A DNA stretch of 64,000 bases from Aliarcobacter faecis. Its GTDB lineage: Bacteria > Campylobacterota > Campylobacteria > Campylobacterales > Arcobacteraceae. Position 1 is the first letter of the stretch; every line of letters starts with the position of its first letter. The DNA is taken from positions 372,001 to 436,000 of the forward strand of contig NZ_CP053837.1 of NCBI RefSeq assembly GCF_013201705.1, given 5' to 3'. The translations under genes were made by a program, and so were the position numbers. The notes under the pieces are model-generated. The model saw only the letters and a program-made list of their open reading frames with translations, did no database searches and was not told the origin of the DNA. This document shows positions 24,626-33,065 of the stretch, piece by piece.

Positions 24626-24639
24626 TTGAACTACTTTTT
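24617..24639. terminator. Bidirectional terminator after the chemoreceptor
   Basis: AAAAAGTAGT (24617-24626), a TGA loop, and ACTACTTTTT (24630-24639) form a perfect 10-bp stem with A/T tails on both sides. It contains the chemoreceptor stop codon and reaches the end of the convergent gene. Confidence 0.85.
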
Positions 24640-25474
24640 ACTTAACTATTTGATGAAGTTTTGAACATTGACCTAAATATGTATCCATTCCACACATATC
24701 ATTCATAATATCTTGGAAACTGTGAGCATGTGCATTGTAAACATATACAAAAATTTCATCACCTTTTTTTAGGAAATTTTTCTTCCCAAAATCTGTATAA
24801 GCTGTTGCACCTGCTGCTATTAAAATACCTTTTGCTTTGTGTGCTTCTTTTAAAAATTGCCCTAATTCTTCAAGTGGTCCACAATCTTCTTGACAATTTA
24901 AAATATCAATCATCCAATCTTTTAATTTTTCAAAAAAATAGCTATAAGATTTAACAGCACTTGTTGTTCCATAATCACAAACTATACCATCTCTTTTAAT
25001 AAATGAAGAGATATGATATTTGCTCAAGATTCCTTTTTCACTAAAATCATCTATTGGAATAATATCTTGAGAAATTCCTTTTGTTTTAGCTCCCCAATTC
25101 TTCTTAGTGCTTAGTTTATTTCCATCTTGAACCCTAATTGAGCAGTCATTAAAAGCTGCAAAATATTTTGGAACAATATCAACTACTTTTTCGTTCTCAT
25201 AGACAAAATCACAAATTAGTGCAACTTCGGCTTCAACTTGTAGTTTTTCATCTTCTCTTCCGTGAGTTAAAATAACTTCATCACAAATAGGATAAGTTCC
25301 TAAAAAACTATTATGACCTTTTATATAAAAGGGGAACATACCTTTTGGAGCATCTTTTTCTTTAGTTTTAATTACAGAAAATTCATCAGCCTCTCCAGCT
25401 TCACCTAAGTGATTTGCAAAATTCCCAGCAACTGCAAAACCTAAATAATCTTTTAAATCTTCTATTAAATTCAT
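24638..25474 (-). CDS. FAH-like (fumarylacetoacetate hydrolase fold) protein of unknown function
   Basis: A 278-residue soluble protein. The QVEAEVALICDF segment (residues ~78-90) recalls the acidic metal-binding strand of the FAH fold, and FAAFNDCSIRV the following FAH core. No catalytic activity can be assigned. It resembles a conserved family of unknown function often found singly in proteobacteria. Its 3' end is convergent with the chemoreceptor and shares a terminator. It is separated from the fumarase gene by a terminator-bearing gap, so it is its own unit. Confidence 0.5.
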   Translation of the reverse strand: MNLIEDLKDYLGFAVAGNFANHLGEAGEADEFSVIKTKEKDAPKGMFPFYIKGHNSFLGTYPICDEVILTHGREDEKLQVEAEVALICDFVYENEKVVDIVPKYFAAFNDCSIRVQDGNKLSTKKNWGAKTKGISQDIIPIDDFSEKGILSKYHISSFIKRDGIVCDYGTTSAVKSYSYFFEKLKDWMIDILNCQEDCGPLEELGQFLKEAHKAKGILIAAGATAYTDFGKKNFLKKGDEIFVYVYNAHAHSFQDIMNDMCGMDTYLGQCSKLHQIVK

Positions 25475-25617: not shown

Positions 25618-27117
25618 TTACTTATTAATAGTTCTCCATTTAGCTGGACCTGTTGTATGAATAGAGTTACCTTCTGTATCAACAGCCACAGTTACAGGCA
25701 TATCTTTTACTTCAAACTCGTAAATAGCTTCCATTCCAAGCTCTTCAAATGCTAAAGTTTTTGCACCTTTTATTGATTGAGCGATTAAATATGCAGCCCC
25801 ACCAGTTGCGATTAGATAAATAGATTTGTACTCTTTTATTAAATCAATAGTAGGTTGTTTTCTCTCACCTTTTCCAATCATTCCCATGATACCAATTTCC
25901 ATCATATCTTTTGTGAATTTATCCATTCTTGTAGATGTTGTTGGTCCTGCAGGTCCTACAACTTCATCTCTTACAGGATCAACTGGTCCAACATAGTAGA
26001 TAAATCTATCTTTTAAATCAACACCATTTGGAAGAGGTTTTCCTGCATTTTTGTATTCAACAATTTTTTTATGAGCAGCATCTCTTGCTGTTAGGATTTT
26101 TCCTGATAAAAGTAGAGTATCTCCTGATTTAAATTGAGATAGATTTTCTTTTGTTAAATCTTCAATATTTACTCTTTTTATAGTATCCATTGGAAGTTTA
26201 ATATCTGGCCAAAGGTCTAAATCAGGTTTATCAAACTTAGCTGCTCCATTACCATTTAATTCAAAATGAATATGTCTTGTTGCTGCACAGTTTGGAATCA
26301 TAGCAACAGGTAATGAAGCGGCGTGACATGGATAATCTAAAATTTTAACATCTAAAACTGTTGTAAGTCCTCCTAGTCCTTGAGCTCCAATTCCAAGTTT
26401 ATTGATATCTTCATAAAGTTTTAATCTTAACTCTTCAAGTGGAGTTTGAGCTCCTCTTTCTTTTAGCTCATGAATATCAACATGTCCCATTAAAGACTCT
26501 TTTGCTAGAAGCATAGCTTTTTCAGGGTTTCCACCAATTCCAATTCCTAAAATACCAGGAGGACACCATCCTGCACCCATATCTTTTACATTTGACATAA
26601 CCCAGTCATAAATACTATCACTTGGATTTAAAACAGTAAATTTAGATTTGTTTTCACTTCCTCCACCTTTAGCTGCAACTGTTATTTCAATAGTATCTGA
26701 GTTATCAGTAGTTGTATGAATAACAGCAGGAGTATTGTTTTTTGTATTTGTTCTTTTTCCAGCTGGATCAGCTACAACTGAAAATCTAAGAGTATTATCA
26801 GGGTCTGTATAACCTTTTGCTACACCTTCATTTAAAACATCTTCTAAATTTCTACTTAAATCTAAATTAGCTTTTAGACCAACTTTTACAAAAATATTTA
26901 CACTTCCTGTATCTTGACATAGGGGTCTATGACCCATAGCACACATTTTTGAATTAATTAAAATTTGTCCAATTGCATTTTTTGCAGATTCACTTTGTTC
27001 TTTTTCATATGCCTCAACCATTCCTTTTACGAAATCTTCTGGATGATAAAAAGAGATGTATTGACAGGCTGAAGCAACTGAATCTATAATATCTTGTTCT
27101 GTAATTTTTTTACTCAT
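25618..27117 (-). CDS. fum: Class I fumarate hydratase (single-chain, Fe-S)
   Basis: A 499-residue fumarase interconverting fumarate and malate in the TCA cycle; class I enzymes often also hydrate mesaconate to citramalate. The three cysteine ligands of the 4Fe-4S cluster are visible: C67 (PLCQDTGS), C185 (GAGWCPPGI) and C277 (IPNCAATRH). The alpha and beta parts of two-subunit forms are fused; the beta part begins near residue 300 and contains VGPVDPVRDEVVGPAGPTTSTRMDKF-type elements. AAAGGAAAAAC precedes the ATG. It has its own promoter and terminator and is not in the CoA operon beside it. Confidence 0.93.
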   Translation of the reverse strand: MSKKITEQDIIDSVASACQYISFYHPEDFVKGMVEAYEKEQSESAKNAIGQILINSKMCAMGHRPLCQDTGSVNIFVKVGLKANLDLSRNLEDVLNEGVAKGYTDPDNTLRFSVVADPAGKRTNTKNNTPAVIHTTTDNSDTIEITVAAKGGGSENKSKFTVLNPSDSIYDWVMSNVKDMGAGWCPPGILGIGIGGNPEKAMLLAKESLMGHVDIHELKERGAQTPLEELRLKLYEDINKLGIGAQGLGGLTTVLDVKILDYPCHAASLPVAMIPNCAATRHIHFELNGNGAAKFDKPDLDLWPDIKLPMDTIKRVNIEDLTKENLSQFKSGDTLLLSGKILTARDAAHKKIVEYKNAGKPLPNGVDLKDRFIYYVGPVDPVRDEVVGPAGPTTSTRMDKFTKDMMEIGIMGMIGKGERKQPTIDLIKEYKSIYLIATGGAAYLIAQSIKGAKTLAFEELGMEAIYEFEVKDMPVTVAVDTEGNSIHTTGPAKWRTINK

Positions 27118-27292: not shown

Positions 27293-28276
27293 TTAAGCAA
27301 AAAATCTTTTTTCTGCTTCATCTTGTAATTTAACACCTGAATATTTAGCTCTTTGAACTAATTCCCAAAAATATCTATAAGTTGCTCTATCGTGTAACTC
27401 TCCATCATATTGAATTGGTCCCCACTCAGCATCTTGAGCTTTGATTAAGATATTTTGTGCAGCTTCAAGTTCTGTAAAATCTGGTCTCATTGCATCAACA
27501 ATAGCTTGAACTTGTGTTGGATAAATTGACCACATTCTCATAAATCCAAACTCATTTCTTGCTCTTTCAGCATCTTTATATGTTTGGTATGGATTTTTTA
27601 AATCTAAAGTTACATTATGTGCTGGGATTACACAATTTTGAATAGCAGCTTGTGCAACTTTTGCTTTTGCAGCTCCGATTAATCTATGGTCAAATTGCCC
27701 AGGACTTCTCATATTTATTGCTGGAATTGCTCCTTGATATCCTGAAACGAAATCCATTAAACCAAAATCTAAAACTTGTAACCAAGGTAAAGTTGCGATT
27801 TTTTCAACATCTTGTAATGCTCCATGAGTTTCAATTAAAACGTGAATTGGAATCTCTTTTTTAATTCCAGCTTTTTTTGCTACTTCTTGAATATACTCAA
27901 TTTGAGTTTTTGCATCTTCATAACAAGTTGATTTTGGTAGAGTAATGTATGCTAAATTTTCTCCAGCACCAGGAACTAAGATATCAACATCTTGTCTCCA
28001 ATCTGGGTGTGAATGATCGTGAATTCTAGTACCAGCCATTTTATATGGATTTGCTTCAGAGTTTACAACTCTTACTATCATTTGAGCATGTTCAACTTCT
28101 TTTCCTGTCTCTGCACCATCTTCACAATCGCAAGTAATGTCAAAAACTGGTCCCAGTTTTTTTTGCATTTCAAAACCTTTTAGGATTAGTTTTTCACTTC
28201 CTGCAAAGTGTTCACAAGTTGGAATAATTGGTAAAGATTTACCAGATTCAAATAAAGCTTCTTTTGGGTGTGTCAT
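27293..28276 (-). CDS. mcl: L-malyl-CoA / beta-methylmalyl-CoA lyase (HpcH/HpaI family)
   Basis: A 327-residue TIM-barrel lyase. Enzymes of this type split L-malyl-CoA into acetyl-CoA and glyoxylate, and beta-methylmalyl-CoA into propionyl-CoA and glyoxylate, reversibly and with Mg2+. The metal ligands are in place: E149 (VLIETHGAL) and D175 (FGLMDFVSG). The conserved FDITCDCEDGAETG and MRMWSIYPTQ segments match the malyl-CoA lyase branch rather than true CitE. It is the last gene of a four-gene operon, 33 bp after the hydratase gene, which makes the C5 substrate likely. Confidence 0.82.
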   Translation of the reverse strand: MTHPKEALFESGKSLPIIPTCEHFAGSEKLILKGFEMQKKLGPVFDITCDCEDGAETGKEVEHAQMIVRVVNSEANPYKMAGTRIHDHSHPDWRQDVDILVPGAGENLAYITLPKSTCYEDAKTQIEYIQEVAKKAGIKKEIPIHVLIETHGALQDVEKIATLPWLQVLDFGLMDFVSGYQGAIPAINMRSPGQFDHRLIGAAKAKVAQAAIQNCVIPAHNVTLDLKNPYQTYKDAERARNEFGFMRMWSIYPTQVQAIVDAMRPDFTELEAAQNILIKAQDAEWGPIQYDGELHDRATYRYFWELVQRAKYSGVKLQDEAEKRFFA

Positions 28277-28309: not shown

Positions 28310-29368
28310 TTATTTTTTTGTAGATTTTTTTGGGATTACAACAGTATAATCTAAATCTAGTACAACATTTGAAAGATATTTACCATCTTCACCTTTTGCA
28401 TTTTCTATCTCTGTTGGATTTTGATTTTTAAGAGCAATAGTTCTTAATCTTAAAAGTCCAATATCCTCTCTTTTATGCTCTATTTTCTCTAAAATTTCTG
28501 TATAAGCATAGATTGTATCCCCCGCATAAGTTGGATTACAATGATTTCCACTATTTATAGCATATACCCATTGAGCATTTTGTAGCCCATTAAAAGAGAT
28601 AGCTCTTGCCATAGAGATGATAATTCCACCATACATTAATCTTTGTCCCATAGGAGTAGATTTCATCATATGCTCATTGAAGTGTACTTTCGCATTATTT
28701 TGATAAAGCTTTGTTGCAAGTGTGTGATCACTATTATCTATTGTAATTCCTTCAGGATGATTTAACCTTTCTCCTACTTCATAATCTTCAAAGAAATACT
28801 CTCCACCACTAGCATTAACATCAATAGCACCAATAGTTGGGATATTGATGTTGTCTAAAATTGGTGTAGTTTTTTCAAAAGTGGGAACAATGTTTATTTC
28901 ACTTAAAGTTGAGAGGTCTTTTTTATGAACCATTACCCATCTTTTAAAGTTTAGAACTTCATTTCCATCTTGATTTATTCCAATAGAGTGAACATAAACA
29001 ACTCCACTTTTTCCATTTGAATTCTCTTTTAATCCAATTACTGTTGAAGTCATACTAACAGTATCTCCAACAAAAACAGGGTTTGGAAAAGATATTTCAG
29101 CATAACCTAAATTTGCAATAGCATTTAAAGATATATCTTGAACACTTTTTCCAAATGTTAAGTGAAACATTAAAATATCATCAATTGGTCTTTTTTTATA
29201 TCCAATCTCTTTTGCCACTATATCACTTGAATGTAGTGAGAATCGCGAACCAGTAAAAGCGATGTATAAAGATACATCACCTTCACTTACTGTTCTAGGG
29301 AGTGGATGGATTATTTTTTGTCCAATACTAAAATCTTCAAAATAGTTACCATAATTTATTTTTGACAA
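28310..29368 (-). CDS. mch: Mesaconyl-CoA hydratase / beta-methylmalyl-CoA dehydratase (double MaoC)
   Basis: A 352-residue double hotdog protein. The N-terminal half contains LTFGKSVQDISLNAIANLGY and a VIGLKENSNGKSGVVYV strand, which closely match known beta-methylmalyl-CoA dehydratases. The second hotdog (from ~residue 190) begins with YFFEDYEVGERLNHPEG and includes a HFNEHMMKSTPMG helix. The enzyme interconverts beta-methylmalyl-CoA and mesaconyl-CoA. It lies 10 bp after the synthetase-fusion gene and 33 bp before the lyase, so the substrate is passed within the operon. Confidence 0.85.
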   Translation of the reverse strand: MSKINYGNYFEDFSIGQKIIHPLPRTVSEGDVSLYIAFTGSRFSLHSSDIVAKEIGYKKRPIDDILMFHLTFGKSVQDISLNAIANLGYAEISFPNPVFVGDTVSMTSTVIGLKENSNGKSGVVYVHSIGINQDGNEVLNFKRWVMVHKKDLSTLSEINIVPTFEKTTPILDNINIPTIGAIDVNASGGEYFFEDYEVGERLNHPEGITIDNSDHTLATKLYQNNAKVHFNEHMMKSTPMGQRLMYGGIIISMARAISFNGLQNAQWVYAINSGNHCNPTYAGDTIYAYTEILEKIEHKREDIGLLRLRTIALKNQNPTEIENAKGEDGKYLSNVVLDLDYTVVIPKKSTKK

Positions 29369-29378
29369 ACAAAACTCC

Positions 29379-31898
29379 TTATTTATTAAATAGATTTTGA
29401 CCTAAAGATTTATAAGTCTCATAAAGTTTTATCATTTTTCTTGCCCATTTAATTCTTGAAGAATCAACAAGTTTATTGTTATGTAGGATTACTTCTTTCC
29501 CTTCTCTTGATGCTTCTTCATATTTTGCAATCATATCTTCATAATCTTCAACTTCAGACTGTTTTGGAGTGAAAATATCATTTATATAATCAATTTGAAT
29601 TGGATGAATAAGTGATTTTCCATCAAATCCAAGATTAAAGGCATCTTTTGTAGAGTCTTCACAAGCAAACTCATCATGAACATCAAAATGTGGACCATCA
29701 ATTACAGTTTTTCCATAAGCTTTTGCAGCAAGTGCTATTTGAGCTAAATATGTAACTATAGCTTTTGAACCTCTTTTTATATCAATTTGAAGTCTATTTG
29801 CTAATTTATTTGAACCAACAACAACAACTTCAACTTTAGGGCTAGCTGCACAAATTTCTTTAATATTAAGTACAGCCATTGGAGTTTCAATCATAATCAT
29901 TAAAGTTAATTTTGGATTTATCTCTTCAATTAATTTAACAGCTTCTAAAACATCCTCTTTTGAGTCAATTTTAGAGAATAATAAACCATCAATTTCAATC
30001 TCTTTTGCTAAAGCTAAATCTTTTTTCAGATCTTCACTTCCAAGATTATTGATTCTTAAAATTCTTTCACTATCTCCAAAACTTGGACCTTGTTCAGTAT
30101 AAATTTCTTTTAAAGTAGCTCTTCCTAACTCTCTTTGATCTTCTAAGATTGCTTCAAAATCAAAAATAACAGTATCAGCTAAAACAGTCTTTGCTTTTTC
30201 TACATTGTGTTTATTGTATGAAGGAACTAATAGCATAGATCTTCTTGCTTTATACTCAACTACTTCTTCACCTTTAGATATAGCTCTTTCTAAATCATGT
30301 AAATCTTTTACAAGTTGTTTTCTAAGAACTTTTCCATTTTTTGTTCTTGGATAATCACTCATTGTAAATATTTTTTTAGGAGCTTTATATTTAGCTAAGT
30401 TTGCTTGAGAGAATTTTAAAATCTCTTCCTCTTTCTCTTTATTTAAAGGAGAATGACCAACAACTGCAATAGCAACAAGAGTTTTGTCTTTTTCAATATC
30501 TAAACCAAAAGCAACACAATCAGCAACATCAGGATGAGTTTTTACAACTCTTTCAATTTCATGTGGACTTACTCTAAATCCAAAAGTATTGATAATATCA
30601 TCTTTTCTTCCAATAAACCAGATATATCCATCTTTATCTTTTCTTGCATAATCTCCTGTAAAGAAATATCCATCATGTCTTGATTTTAAAGTCTCTTCTT
30701 CAAGTTGCCAATACTCTAAAAATAGTCCTGGATCATCTTCTCCAATACAAATCATTCCTTCTTCTTCAACTCCTACTTCTTCTAGTGTTTCAGGGTTTAA
30801 AAGTTTTACAATATGTCCTGGTTGTGGGAAACCAGCACTTCCTGGTCTTATTGGATTGAATTTTGAGTGTGAAATGTAGTATGAACACTCACTCATTCCA
30901 ATAGCTTCAAAAATATCTTGTTTAAATCTCTCTCTCCAAAGTCCTAACATCTCATCACTTAAATGCTCACCAGCACTCATACAATATCTTAGACTTGGGC
31001 AATCATCAAGTGTGAAATCTGTTTTTTGAATAATTTGTCTATATATTGTTGGAACTCCAATAAATATAGTACATTCATGTTTTTTGATTAAATCAATCCA
31101 AGTTGAAGCATCATTTGAACCTTCATAAGCAATAACTGTATGACCATTATATAATGGATCCATAAGTGCAGAACCTAAAACATAAGTCCAGTTAAATTTT
31201 CCAGAGTGCATAATTCTGTCATTCTCTTTAAAATCAAACCAATAATCAGTTGCAGGTTTTCTTCCTACTAGCGATCTATGAGAGTGTAAAACACCTTTTG
31301 GATAACCAGTTGTTCCAGAAGTATATACTAAATATGCAGGTTCTCCTGATTTTGAGTTATAGTGATTTGCTTTAGTGTCTGTATCTTTAAAAATTTGATT
31401 TAAAGAGTAAACATTTATATCTTTTGGTTTTTTTAAATCTTCAACATTATCAACACCCGCAACAACAATTGTTCTTAAATTATCAAGATTTTCTAAATAT
31501 GGAACTAAATTTTCATACATAGAAGCAGATAAAACAATGGCTTTTGCTTGAGAATCTTCAGCTAAATATTTAACTTCACTACCACTTAAAAGTGTTGAAG
31601 TAGGAACAGCAATCATTCCACCTTTCATTACTCCAAAAAACGATATTGGATAAGCTAAAGAGTTTTTTAGACAAACTAAAACTCTATCTCTTGGTTCAAG
31701 TCCAATTCCTCTAAAGAAATTTGCTACTTGATCTGATTTTGTTGATAACTCTTTATAAGTTATTGTATCTGTACCTAATTTATCATCTTCAATAATCATA
31801 GCAACATTATTTTCTTTATTAGTTCCTAACCATGATGAAGTACAAGCAACTCCTATATTTAAAAATTCAGGAACTTCTAGTTTAACTGTTTGACTCAT
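29379..31898 (-). CDS. Acyl-CoA synthetase fused to a degenerate CitE-like domain
   Basis: An 839-residue fusion. Residues 1-540 are an AMP-forming acyl-CoA synthetase: P-loop-like YTSGTTGYPKG at 192-202, GYFFTGDYARKDKDG at 410-424, and catalytic K523 in RTKNGKVLRK. Residues ~552-839 are an HpcH/HpaI (CitE-like) barrel: RRSMLLVPS start, R615 in ILRINN, E671 in IETPMAV, and a HPIQID end. In active lyases an Asp sits three residues after the Gly of the FGxxD motif; here it is K698 (GSNKLA). LED after the first strand is FEA. The barrel may therefore bind CoA esters without lyase activity. The organic acid is not known; mesaconate or a similar C4/C5 acid is suggested by neighbours. AAGGAG precedes the ATG. 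Confidence 0.85.
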   Translation of the reverse strand: MSQTVKLEVPEFLNIGVACTSSWLGTNKENNVAMIIEDDKLGTDTITYKELSTKSDQVANFFRGIGLEPRDRVLVCLKNSLAYPISFFGVMKGGMIAVPTSTLLSGSEVKYLAEDSQAKAIVLSASMYENLVPYLENLDNLRTIVVAGVDNVEDLKKPKDINVYSLNQIFKDTDTKANHYNSKSGEPAYLVYTSGTTGYPKGVLHSHRSLVGRKPATDYWFDFKENDRIMHSGKFNWTYVLGSALMDPLYNGHTVIAYEGSNDASTWIDLIKKHECTIFIGVPTIYRQIIQKTDFTLDDCPSLRYCMSAGEHLSDEMLGLWRERFKQDIFEAIGMSECSYYISHSKFNPIRPGSAGFPQPGHIVKLLNPETLEEVGVEEEGMICIGEDDPGLFLEYWQLEEETLKSRHDGYFFTGDYARKDKDGYIWFIGRKDDIINTFGFRVSPHEIERVVKTHPDVADCVAFGLDIEKDKTLVAIAVVGHSPLNKEKEEEILKFSQANLAKYKAPKKIFTMSDYPRTKNGKVLRKQLVKDLHDLERAISKGEEVVEYKARRSMLLVPSYNKHNVEKAKTVLADTVIFDFEAILEDQRELGRATLKEIYTEQGPSFGDSERILRINNLGSEDLKKDLALAKEIEIDGLLFSKIDSKEDVLEAVKLIEEINPKLTLMIMIETPMAVLNIKEICAASPKVEVVVVGSNKLANRLQIDIKRGSKAIVTYLAQIALAAKAYGKTVIDGPHFDVHDEFACEDSTKDAFNLGFDGKSLIHPIQIDYINDIFTPKQSEVEDYEDMIAKYEEASREGKEVILHNNKLVDSSRIKWARKMIKLYETYKSLGQNLFNK

Positions 31899-31916: not shown

Positions 31917-33050
31917 TTACAATTGACCATATGGCCAGTTTTCTTTAAATGTATGTAAAGGCATTTTATTTAACACAGAAAGTGCAAATAACTCATCTTC
32001 TTTTGATAAACTATTTAAGGCATAAGCTCTTAAAATATTTTGTAAAGATTTTCCAAACATTGGTGGATCTAACATCTCTCCTTCATATCTAATAGCCCCA
32101 CTTAAAAGTGCATCAGCTTCAATAGCAGCTTTTAAAATAGCTACATCTTTCTCTATTTCTAAAGGAGATGGAGTAAATGCAACTTTACAGATATTTATAT
32201 GGTTTGGAGTAATAACTTGTTTACCTGTTAATCCCATTGCAGTCTCTCTTAAAGCATGAGCATAAACATGTTTACTAGCTTCATCTCCATGTAAATCTAA
32301 CCATCTTCTAATATCTTTTTTCTCAACACAGCTATCTGGTAGAGAATGTGGTGTTAAAAGAACTTCAACCCCTCCAATTACCCCTTTACCTTTAATTCTA
32401 GCTTCCATTGTAAGAATATTAAAGAAAGTTTCAAGTTCATCAATCCAACCTTTTGGAGTAATTTTATAAGCCATAGCTTTTGAAAAATCGTGAATTCCAA
32501 ATACGATATGTTTAACTGTTGAATGCTCCATTAATCTATCTGCAATTTGAAGTGATTTTGGATGTTCAATAATTGGTTGAATTGTAAGTTTACTTCCAAT
32601 AGAGATTAACCAAGAGCTTAAATCTCTAATCTCTGCACTTCCATAAACTTCTCCAGCTTTAGCTAAAACAATCACATCAATATACTGATGAATTTGTTTT
32701 AACATTTTTAAATCCTCTTCATACTCTTCTGTTCTAAATGGATTTATTCTTATAGCTATTTGAAAATCTCTTTCAGGGAATTTTGGTAATTCTTGAATTA
32801 AAAGTTCTCTACTCATAGCTTTTTGTCTACAACCATCTTCTAAATCAAATAAAACAGTATGAGCTTTTGTTTTATAAGCATGTTTTTGTAGTCTTAGTTT
32901 CGCTTGTTCCATTGTTTCATAAGACCCATCTAGTGGATTATATTTAATTGGTGGATAGTATATTTGAATACCTGGCCAATAACCACCAAGAACTGGTGTT
33001 AAATCGTCATTTGCTGTTAATTTAGATAAATCTATCGCAGAAGTCATCAT
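31917..33050 (-). CDS. CitE-like lyase of the HpcH/HpaI family
   Basis: 377 residues from the chosen start. ATG at 33050 is preferred to one 15 bp upstream because AAAGG lies at the right distance. Metal ligands are present, E162 (PIIEHPKS) and D188 (FGIHDFSK); these are 167 and 193 from the upstream ATG. The LFDLEDGCR start of the barrel and the AIRINPF CoA-binding Arg are also present. It is longer than CitE (~290), with an extra N-terminal arm (a GGYWPGIQIYYPP segment). It is the first gene of the operon and 18 bp before the fusion gene. The substrate could be citramalyl-CoA, malyl-CoA or a related ester. Confidence 0.7.
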   Translation of the reverse strand: MMTSAIDLSKLTANDDLTPVLGGYWPGIQIYYPPIKYNPLDGSYETMEQAKLRLQKHAYKTKAHTVLFDLEDGCRQKAMSRELLIQELPKFPERDFQIAIRINPFRTEEYEEDLKMLKQIHQYIDVIVLAKAGEVYGSAEIRDLSSWLISIGSKLTIQPIIEHPKSLQIADRLMEHSTVKHIVFGIHDFSKAMAYKITPKGWIDELETFFNILTMEARIKGKGVIGGVEVLLTPHSLPDSCVEKKDIRRWLDLHGDEASKHVYAHALRETAMGLTGKQVITPNHINICKVAFTPSPLEIEKDVAILKAAIEADALLSGAIRYEGEMLDPPMFGKSLQNILRAYALNSLSKEDELFALSVLNKMPLHTFKENWPYGQL

Positions 33051-33065
33051 ATTTAAACCTTTCAT

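Follow-up and report, generated by a model that had tools for sequence, protein, structure and literature searches.

The window analysed here, a 64,000-nucleotide stretch of the Aliarcobacter faecis genome, encodes a protein in which an AMP-forming acyl-CoA synthetase is fused to a CitE-type barrel, and metal-site residues of this barrel were found to be lost in all 79 distinct full-length fusions collected. The metal ligands in question have been termed absolutely conserved across the CitE-like superfamily (PMC3832036), and the fusion clade has lost them under purifying selection and in the constant company of two unfused lyases, LY1 and LY2. The fused barrel has very probably given up lyase chemistry. 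As the best-supported reading we infer CoA binding by the barrel and a role in assembly: it would be a pseudo-lyase, retained as a module for CoA-ester binding or assembly through which an active ligase is tied to LY1 and LY2, a proposal that we consider evenly poised between right and wrong. The gene for the fusion, its parts and its neighbours were located as follows.

31917..33065 (-), LY2, CitE-like lyase with seven catalytic or metal residues intact (in all 75 distinct sequences), located upstream of the fusion gene with an 18-bp gap
29379..31898 (-), fusion protein of 839 aa: AMP-forming acyl-CoA synthetase, CitE-type barrel and lid (open frame, Pfam domains, full-length relatives)
30708..31805 (-), AMP-binding domain, residues 32-397, with SGTTG (194-198) inside (Pfam, 243.9 bits)
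30330..30560 (-), AMP-binding_C domain, residues 447-523, with the catalytic Lys K523 (Pfam)
30246..30311 (-), variable linker, residues 530-551 (14.4 changes per site on average, the synthetase N domain having 4.2)
29601..30242 (-), HpcH/HpaI (CitE-type) TIM barrel, residues 553-766, without its metal site (HpcH_HpaI, 102.7 bits, cut-off 25)
30150..30155 (-), E582-A583, former Glu-Asp (E44-D45) pair with the Asp lost (position 583 in the fusions: A 65, G 9, Y 3, M 1, E 1)
29886..29888 (-), E671, at the site of the Mg2+-binding Glu, E141 (E 71, D 6, A 1, Q 1; n = 79)
29805..29807 (-), K698, at the site of the Mg2+-binding Asp, D168 (K 57, N 9, T 8, R 2, A 1, S 1, Q 1; n = 79)
29394..29570 (-), C-terminal lid, residues 777-835 (aligned with 5ugr and 4l9y)
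29463..29465 (-), D812, equivalent of the lid Asp D299 (Asp throughout the 79 fusions, with no change on the tree; aligned with 4l9y without gaps)
28310..29368 (-), MaoC-type double hydratase, mesaconyl-CoA-hydratase-like (PF19315, 77.6 bits, cut-off 26.5)
27293..28276 (-), LY1, CitE-like lyase, intact (seven residues kept in all 58 distinct sequences)
25618..27117 (-), class I fumarase, candidate mesaconase, optional neighbour (Pfam Fumerase and Fumerase_C)
24638..25474 (-), DUF5718 protein closing the cluster, perhaps another enzyme of the pathway (31 of 50 loci)

Read on the plus strand, 29379-31898 contains stops throughout, so that the open frame is real on the minus strand, a point on which the earlier note was silent; its numbering of SGTTG (194-198), K523, E671, G695 and K698 agrees with the 839-aa protein. 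Its description of a complete AMP-forming synthetase joined to an HpcH/HpaI barrel held, all Pfam domains of the fusion scoring above their cut-offs. Residues S194-G198, K201 and E337 were unchanged across 31 aligned fusion members, both AMP-binding and AMP-binding_C were matched by 31/31 scanned members (E 0.001), and SGTTG together with the catalytic Lys K523 was present in 52/52; in a second alignment, Lys occupied position 523 in 50 of 51 rows, the remaining row ending before the site. The protein thus carries the characters of the ANL family of AMP-forming acyl-CoA synthetases (both Pfam domains over cut-off, SGTTG and the catalytic Lys) as well as those of the CitE-like, or HpcH-HpaI, fold (a barrel followed by a C-terminal lid). 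The best 25 of its 111 NCBIfam matches all fell under their cut-offs, and the solved structure that best matched the ligase is annotated as a 4-hydroxybutyrate-CoA ligase (199.6 bits). Judging from its intact motifs, the ligase half would be an active AMP-forming CoA ligase, its substrate probably a C4/C5 dicarboxylic acid (mesaconate, citramalate or malate).

The whole-protein AF2 model was shallow (31 rows, mean pLDDT 72.8, pTM 0.50), with pLDDT below 50 at residues 183-219, the stretch that includes SGTTG, and its domain arrangement was for that reason left unused. The top 50 Foldseek matches listed for this model carried synthetase-type titles, one being titled acryloyl-CoA lyase PrpE. The lid was predicted as a helix-hairpin-helix in both AF2 models, at a confidence below that of the barrel.

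In malyl-CoA lyase of R. sphaeroides, Mg2+ is bound by Glu141 and Asp168, and Glu44 and Asp45 hold the waters of the metal (PMC3832036). By alignment, the counterparts of E141, E44 and D299 in the fusion are E671, E582 and D812, D168 is replaced by K698, and D45 is missing (A583). Neither the Glu/Asp ligand pair of an active lyase nor the Glu-Asp pair for the metal waters is therefore complete, and the equivalents of Arg76 (position 615, Arg in the window protein; R 72, K 7, n = 79) and of the lid Asp299 are present. K698 lines up with the Asp of human CLYBL, and the equivalent position was Asp in 7/7 unfused CitE-like proteins compared, a set drawn from six plasmid records (of 281 matched) plus a protein encoded by a genome of the same order, rather than a superfamily-wide sample. 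The earlier note had pointed to Lys in place of the ligand Asp, with Glu kept, and this is no slip of one genome: an acid at position 698 was found in 0/79 distinct full-length fusions, which were collected by likeness to known fusions, such that one with an intact site might escape. The alignment likewise bears out D175 of the 27293 gene (LY1) and D193 of the 31917 gene (LY2) as the equivalent metal ligands. As for the change of LED to FEA, the loss of Asp stands, whereas a plain D-to-A change does not; a one-residue deletion of the Asp looks likelier, the exact place of the gap depending on the alignment.

No conserved substitute acid was present in the ligand loop among the 79 fusions, D706 changing at least five times. 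In two members E671 itself is replaced by Ala or Gln, and both also lack an acid at 698. Elsewhere in the barrel, D734, K761 and H765 are kept in 79/79 fusions and the DGK..HP.Q and IDG motifs are invariant.

Changes per site were counted, as minimum numbers, on a quick-method tree of 79 rows that used only the synthetase domain. For position 698 the count was 13 or more, exceeding that of 77% of barrel sites, and for the nearby G695, N697 and L699 it was zero; three changes were counted at position 671 and none at 812, 734, 761 and 765. Since 698 drifts while its loop neighbours stay fixed, a conserved lysine mechanism is excluded for the family, and lysine-specific chemistry at this position was rejected given seven residue types (K, N, T, R, A, S or Q) and at least 13 changes; the special role that the earlier note's emphasis on K698 might suggest for the lysine accordingly fell away. 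From these patterns the metal site looks released from its former duty, with the shape of the loop kept.

Selection on the barrel is purifying. Comparing the window with six same-genus sequences (Nei-Gojobori), dN/dS was 0.089-0.150 for the barrel in 6/6 pairs and 0.088-0.120 for the synthetase. The barrel was 50-58% identical between the window and one Sulfurospirillum-labelled plus five of the six gamma-labelled members, while these comparisons gave 72-81% for LY1, 77-87% for LY2 and 71-74% for the ligase. Restricted to the five gamma-labelled members, the figures were 50-55% for the barrel, 71-72% for the synthetase, 64-67% for MaoC, 78-80% for LY2 and 72-78% for LY1 (four measured). Having the lowest identity and yet a low dN/dS, the barrel is the loosest part of the unit and is nonetheless kept. 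In a quick barrel tree of 43 rows, flagged for long branches and weak for deep placement, 16 fusion barrels formed one clade (100*) which was joined with four unfused CitE-like sequences (95*). A recent duplication of LY1 or LY2 as the source of the barrel was not favoured, the fusion barrels grouping away from both.

Downstream of the fusion, gaps of 10 bp to the hydratase, 33 bp from there to LY1, 175 bp to the fumarase and 143 bp to the DUF5718 gene separate the members of the cluster. Both unfused lyases were intact, as had been claimed from the window alone, with all seven residues retained in every distinct sequence of LY2 and LY1 listed above. A close solved relative of LY1 is 3qqw (469 bits), whose title, 'putative citrate lyase', names no reaction. 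PF19315 over its cut-off marks the product of 28310-29368 as mesaconyl-CoA-hydratase-like, and its RipB_Ich score was 123.1 bits, under the cut-off of 340. None of the three neighbours reached the NCBIfam equivalogs for RipABC itaconate degradation, LY1 and LY2 scoring 37.2 and 52.1 against a cut-off of 375 and the hydratase also falling below. At L064/L099 the MaoC-type gene appeared as two frames of 207 and 120 aa, reflecting a frameshift, a sequencing error or a real split.

A scan of GTDB species genomes with the barrel alignment and two short peptide patterns returned 61 stretches, and a relative is encoded in 50 of them. The hosts were Arcobacter-, Sulfurospirillum- and Campylobacterales-type records, one 'bacterium' and six metagenome-assembled genomes (MAGs; L098, L113, L118, L119, L121 and L125) labelled Gammaproteobacteria or Chromatiales, labels which are the depositors' own. 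The order LY2-fusion-MaoC-LY1 on one strand was complete in 48/50 loci, the two incomplete ones (L089 and L124) being cut by contig ends and some end genes being partial. A second set of 25 loci, which has genomes in common with the first, contained LY2 in 25/25 and MaoC and LY1 in 24/25 each, the miss lying at a contig end. The fumarase and DUF5718 genes, present in 23 and 31 of 50 loci (counts lowered by contig ends), were for this reason placed outside the conserved core, and DUF5718 was not found in the available stretches of the six gamma-labelled units. Other genes were seen beside the unit: an IclR-family regulator divergent from LY2 in 3/3 scanned Sulfurospirillum-labelled loci (L080:3116-3835, L081:3242-3955, L083:3142-3873), and, in a Chromatiales-labelled MAG (L098:12045-13820), a sodium/solute symporter of the VC_2705 family that more weakly resembles acetate and monocarboxylate symporters.

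The search for the same domain fusion elsewhere, which the earlier note had recommended, yielded 79 distinct full-length homologues. The fusion was present in 30/30 same-genus genomes (split over two contigs in one), in 3/6 other members of the family, and in 38/397 genomes of the phylum (taken to be Campylobacterota), from two families. Separate searches with LY1 and LY2 gave matches in the same 38 of 397 genomes, and LY2 occurred among the 397 only in these 38. With no plasmid relative of LY2 at E 1e-20 in 72,556 records, it appears to be a lyase subfamily tied to this unit. Plasmids also lacked the fusion, 0/265 records matched by the whole protein reaching 80% coverage; the nearest plasmid relatives of the ligase, from Methylobacterium, were 36-38% identical and unannotated, and the list of open reading frames around them gave no clue to function. 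Retention of a dead-looking domain with the same three partner genes across groups suggests a non-catalytic job.

In the pseudo-lyase reading, the ligase half would make the CoA ester of a C4/C5 dicarboxylic acid. The barrel, with its CitE fold, invariant motifs and lid retained, would be unable to bind Mg2+ in the usual way and hence, we propose, would neither cleave nor hydrolyse malyl-CoA-type esters; instead it would couple the ligase to LY2 and LY1, most simply by joining their oligomers, and the CoA ester would be passed on to the real lyases. The metal-site losses in 79/79 members, a ligand position that drifts within a frozen loop, intact ligase motifs, a barrel that diverges fastest at low dN/dS, the invariance of D734, K761, H765 and D812, and the joint presence of fusion, LY1 and LY2 in the same genomes all speak for this account. 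Against it, LY1 and LY2 do not need D812, because each has its own lid Asp; most members retain E671 and E582, as would be expected of a pocket still in use; and identical presence of the three genes is also expected from any shared pathway.

A more specific form of the same idea starts from malyl-CoA lyase, where the lid residue Asp299 extends into the active site of the adjacent subunit (PMC3832036). The fused barrel would be a pseudo-subunit of a mixed lyase assembly, packed on LY2 (or LY1), that lends D812 to the partner site and has given up its own metal, so that the ligase sits on the lyase oligomer as a relay for C4/C5 CoA esters. We offer this only tentatively and regard it as rather doubtful. 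Within the genus the lid was more constrained than the barrel core in 5/6 pairs (dN/dS), whereas over the 79 fusions it was no more conserved than the core (8.0 vs 7.75 changes per site on average; mean entropy, 0.98 vs 0.82), which counts against a strict trans-acting reading of the lid.

The earlier note had proposed a CoA-ester-binding or regulatory module, or altered chemistry; this was the right family of readings, given the loss of the metal-site residues. Were the barrel a regulatory sensor, it would bind a CoA ester or free dicarboxylate and switch the fused ligase on or off, leaving LY1 and LY2 untouched. Invariance of the DGK..HP.Q and IDG motifs though the metal site is lost, the variable linker and fusion of the barrel to the ligase only are all consistent with such a switch, which nevertheless supplies no reason of its own for occurrence in the same 38/397 genomes as LY1 and LY2 (a common pathway could), and we consider it unlikely.

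New chemistry seems to us quite unlikely. Here E671, R615 and D812 would support a metal-independent reaction of CoA esters (e.g. thioester hydrolysis or isomerisation), in keeping with their conservation (71/79, 72/79 and 79/79, respectively) and with the grouping of the fusion barrels with four unfused CitE-like sequences that have a lid Glu, as in the thioesterase subgroup (PMC3832036). However, E671 is Ala or Gln in two members and R615 is Lys in seven, the lid Glu of that subgroup is Asp in 79/79 fusions, and characterised CitE-like members, a thioesterase included, require Mg2+ or Mn2+ (PMC3832036). An ordinary lyase holding Mg2+ by other acids could draw on the largely retained E671 and E582 and on the full fold and lid, but is made very improbable by a ligand loop without a conserved acid, where even D706 changes at least five times, and by the two members that lack E671 as well as an acid at 698. 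Least credible, and by our estimate extremely improbable, is a decaying remnant of a once bifunctional ligase-lyase: the barrel is the fastest-evolving part of the unit, yet it is full length in 79 distinct sequences from two bacterial groups, at dN/dS of 0.089-0.150.

The host genome (2.45 Mb) gave no match to malate synthase (PF01274), and its only isocitrate-lyase-family match covered 97/526 positions in an open frame of 298 aa, a short match which could fit the methylcitrate-pathway enzyme 2-methylisocitrate lyase; that pathway has been reported for A. butzleri, which does not grow on acetate or propionate (PMC2147049). The organisms hosting the proposed relay appear to lack a glyoxylate shunt. 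Fifteen plasmid records, mostly of Burkholderiales, encode proteins with 46-62% identity to LY1; in five plasmid regions that were opened (Cupriavidus, Sphingobium, Azoarcus, Variovorax) the LY1 relatives were 53-62% identical. MaoC adjoined the LY1 relative in 2/5 of these regions; an annotated CoA-transferase lay within 3/5, a fourth contained an alpha-methylacyl-CoA racemase, and the Azoarcus region had neither. Because CoA-transferase-type genes occur near the plasmid LY1 relatives, the ligase plausibly takes the role of such an enzyme. By analogy with mesaconate utilisation, which proceeds through mesaconase, CoA-transferase and citramalyl-CoA lyase (PMC4682846), the AMP-forming ligase would plausibly stand in for the CoA-transferase.

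The earlier note knew of no such arrangement from a described pathway; the fusion and its neighbours are in fact already in the 2007 genome paper on A. butzleri (PMC2147049), where AB1918 combines a synthetase domain with a CitE domain, AB1917 and AB1920 are CitE, AB1919 is a hydratase and AB1921 a fumarase. A citramalate/3-hydroxypropionate-like pathway was proposed there for AB1917-AB1921, interconverting glyoxylate plus propionyl-CoA and pyruvate plus acetyl-CoA, and this has stood since 2007 as a sequence-based proposal. An open-access literature search returned no mention of the lost metal site, 'metal' and 'magnesium' occurring in the available text of PMC2147049 only in unrelated places, and the accessible portions of PMC3832036, PMC4682846 and PMC6593406 do not describe the fusion.

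If the barrel is indeed an assembly or sensing module, the unit would show coupling of a ligase to C-C lyases in a pathway of central carbon metabolism. As a warning for annotation, the fused barrel should not be counted as a third lyase.

Compared with known systems, the unit in the window is closest to AB1917-AB1921 of A. butzleri, which by order and description can be equated with LY2, the fusion, the hydratase, LY1 and the class I fumarase. It differs from that account in that all three CitE proteins were taken as possible lyases (PMC2147049) while the fused one here is without its metal site, and in that the unit extends to Sulfurospirillum and to gamma-labelled MAGs. Relative to malyl-CoA and citramalyl-CoA lyases (5ugr, 4l9y/4l9z, human CLYBL 5vxc/5vxs), the fused barrel lacks two metal-site Asp residues and is joined to a CoA ligase. 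In the malyl-CoA thioesterase subgroup, Glu replaces Asp at the lid position (PMC3832036), a feature shared by the four nearest unfused sequences in our small tree, in contrast to the fusions, which have the lid Asp throughout and no metal site. Finally, mesaconate utilisation (PMC4682846) resembles the present cluster in combining a class I fumarase with CitE-type lyases nearby, whereas here an AMP-forming ligase takes the place of the CoA-transferase and the fumarase lies outside the conserved core.
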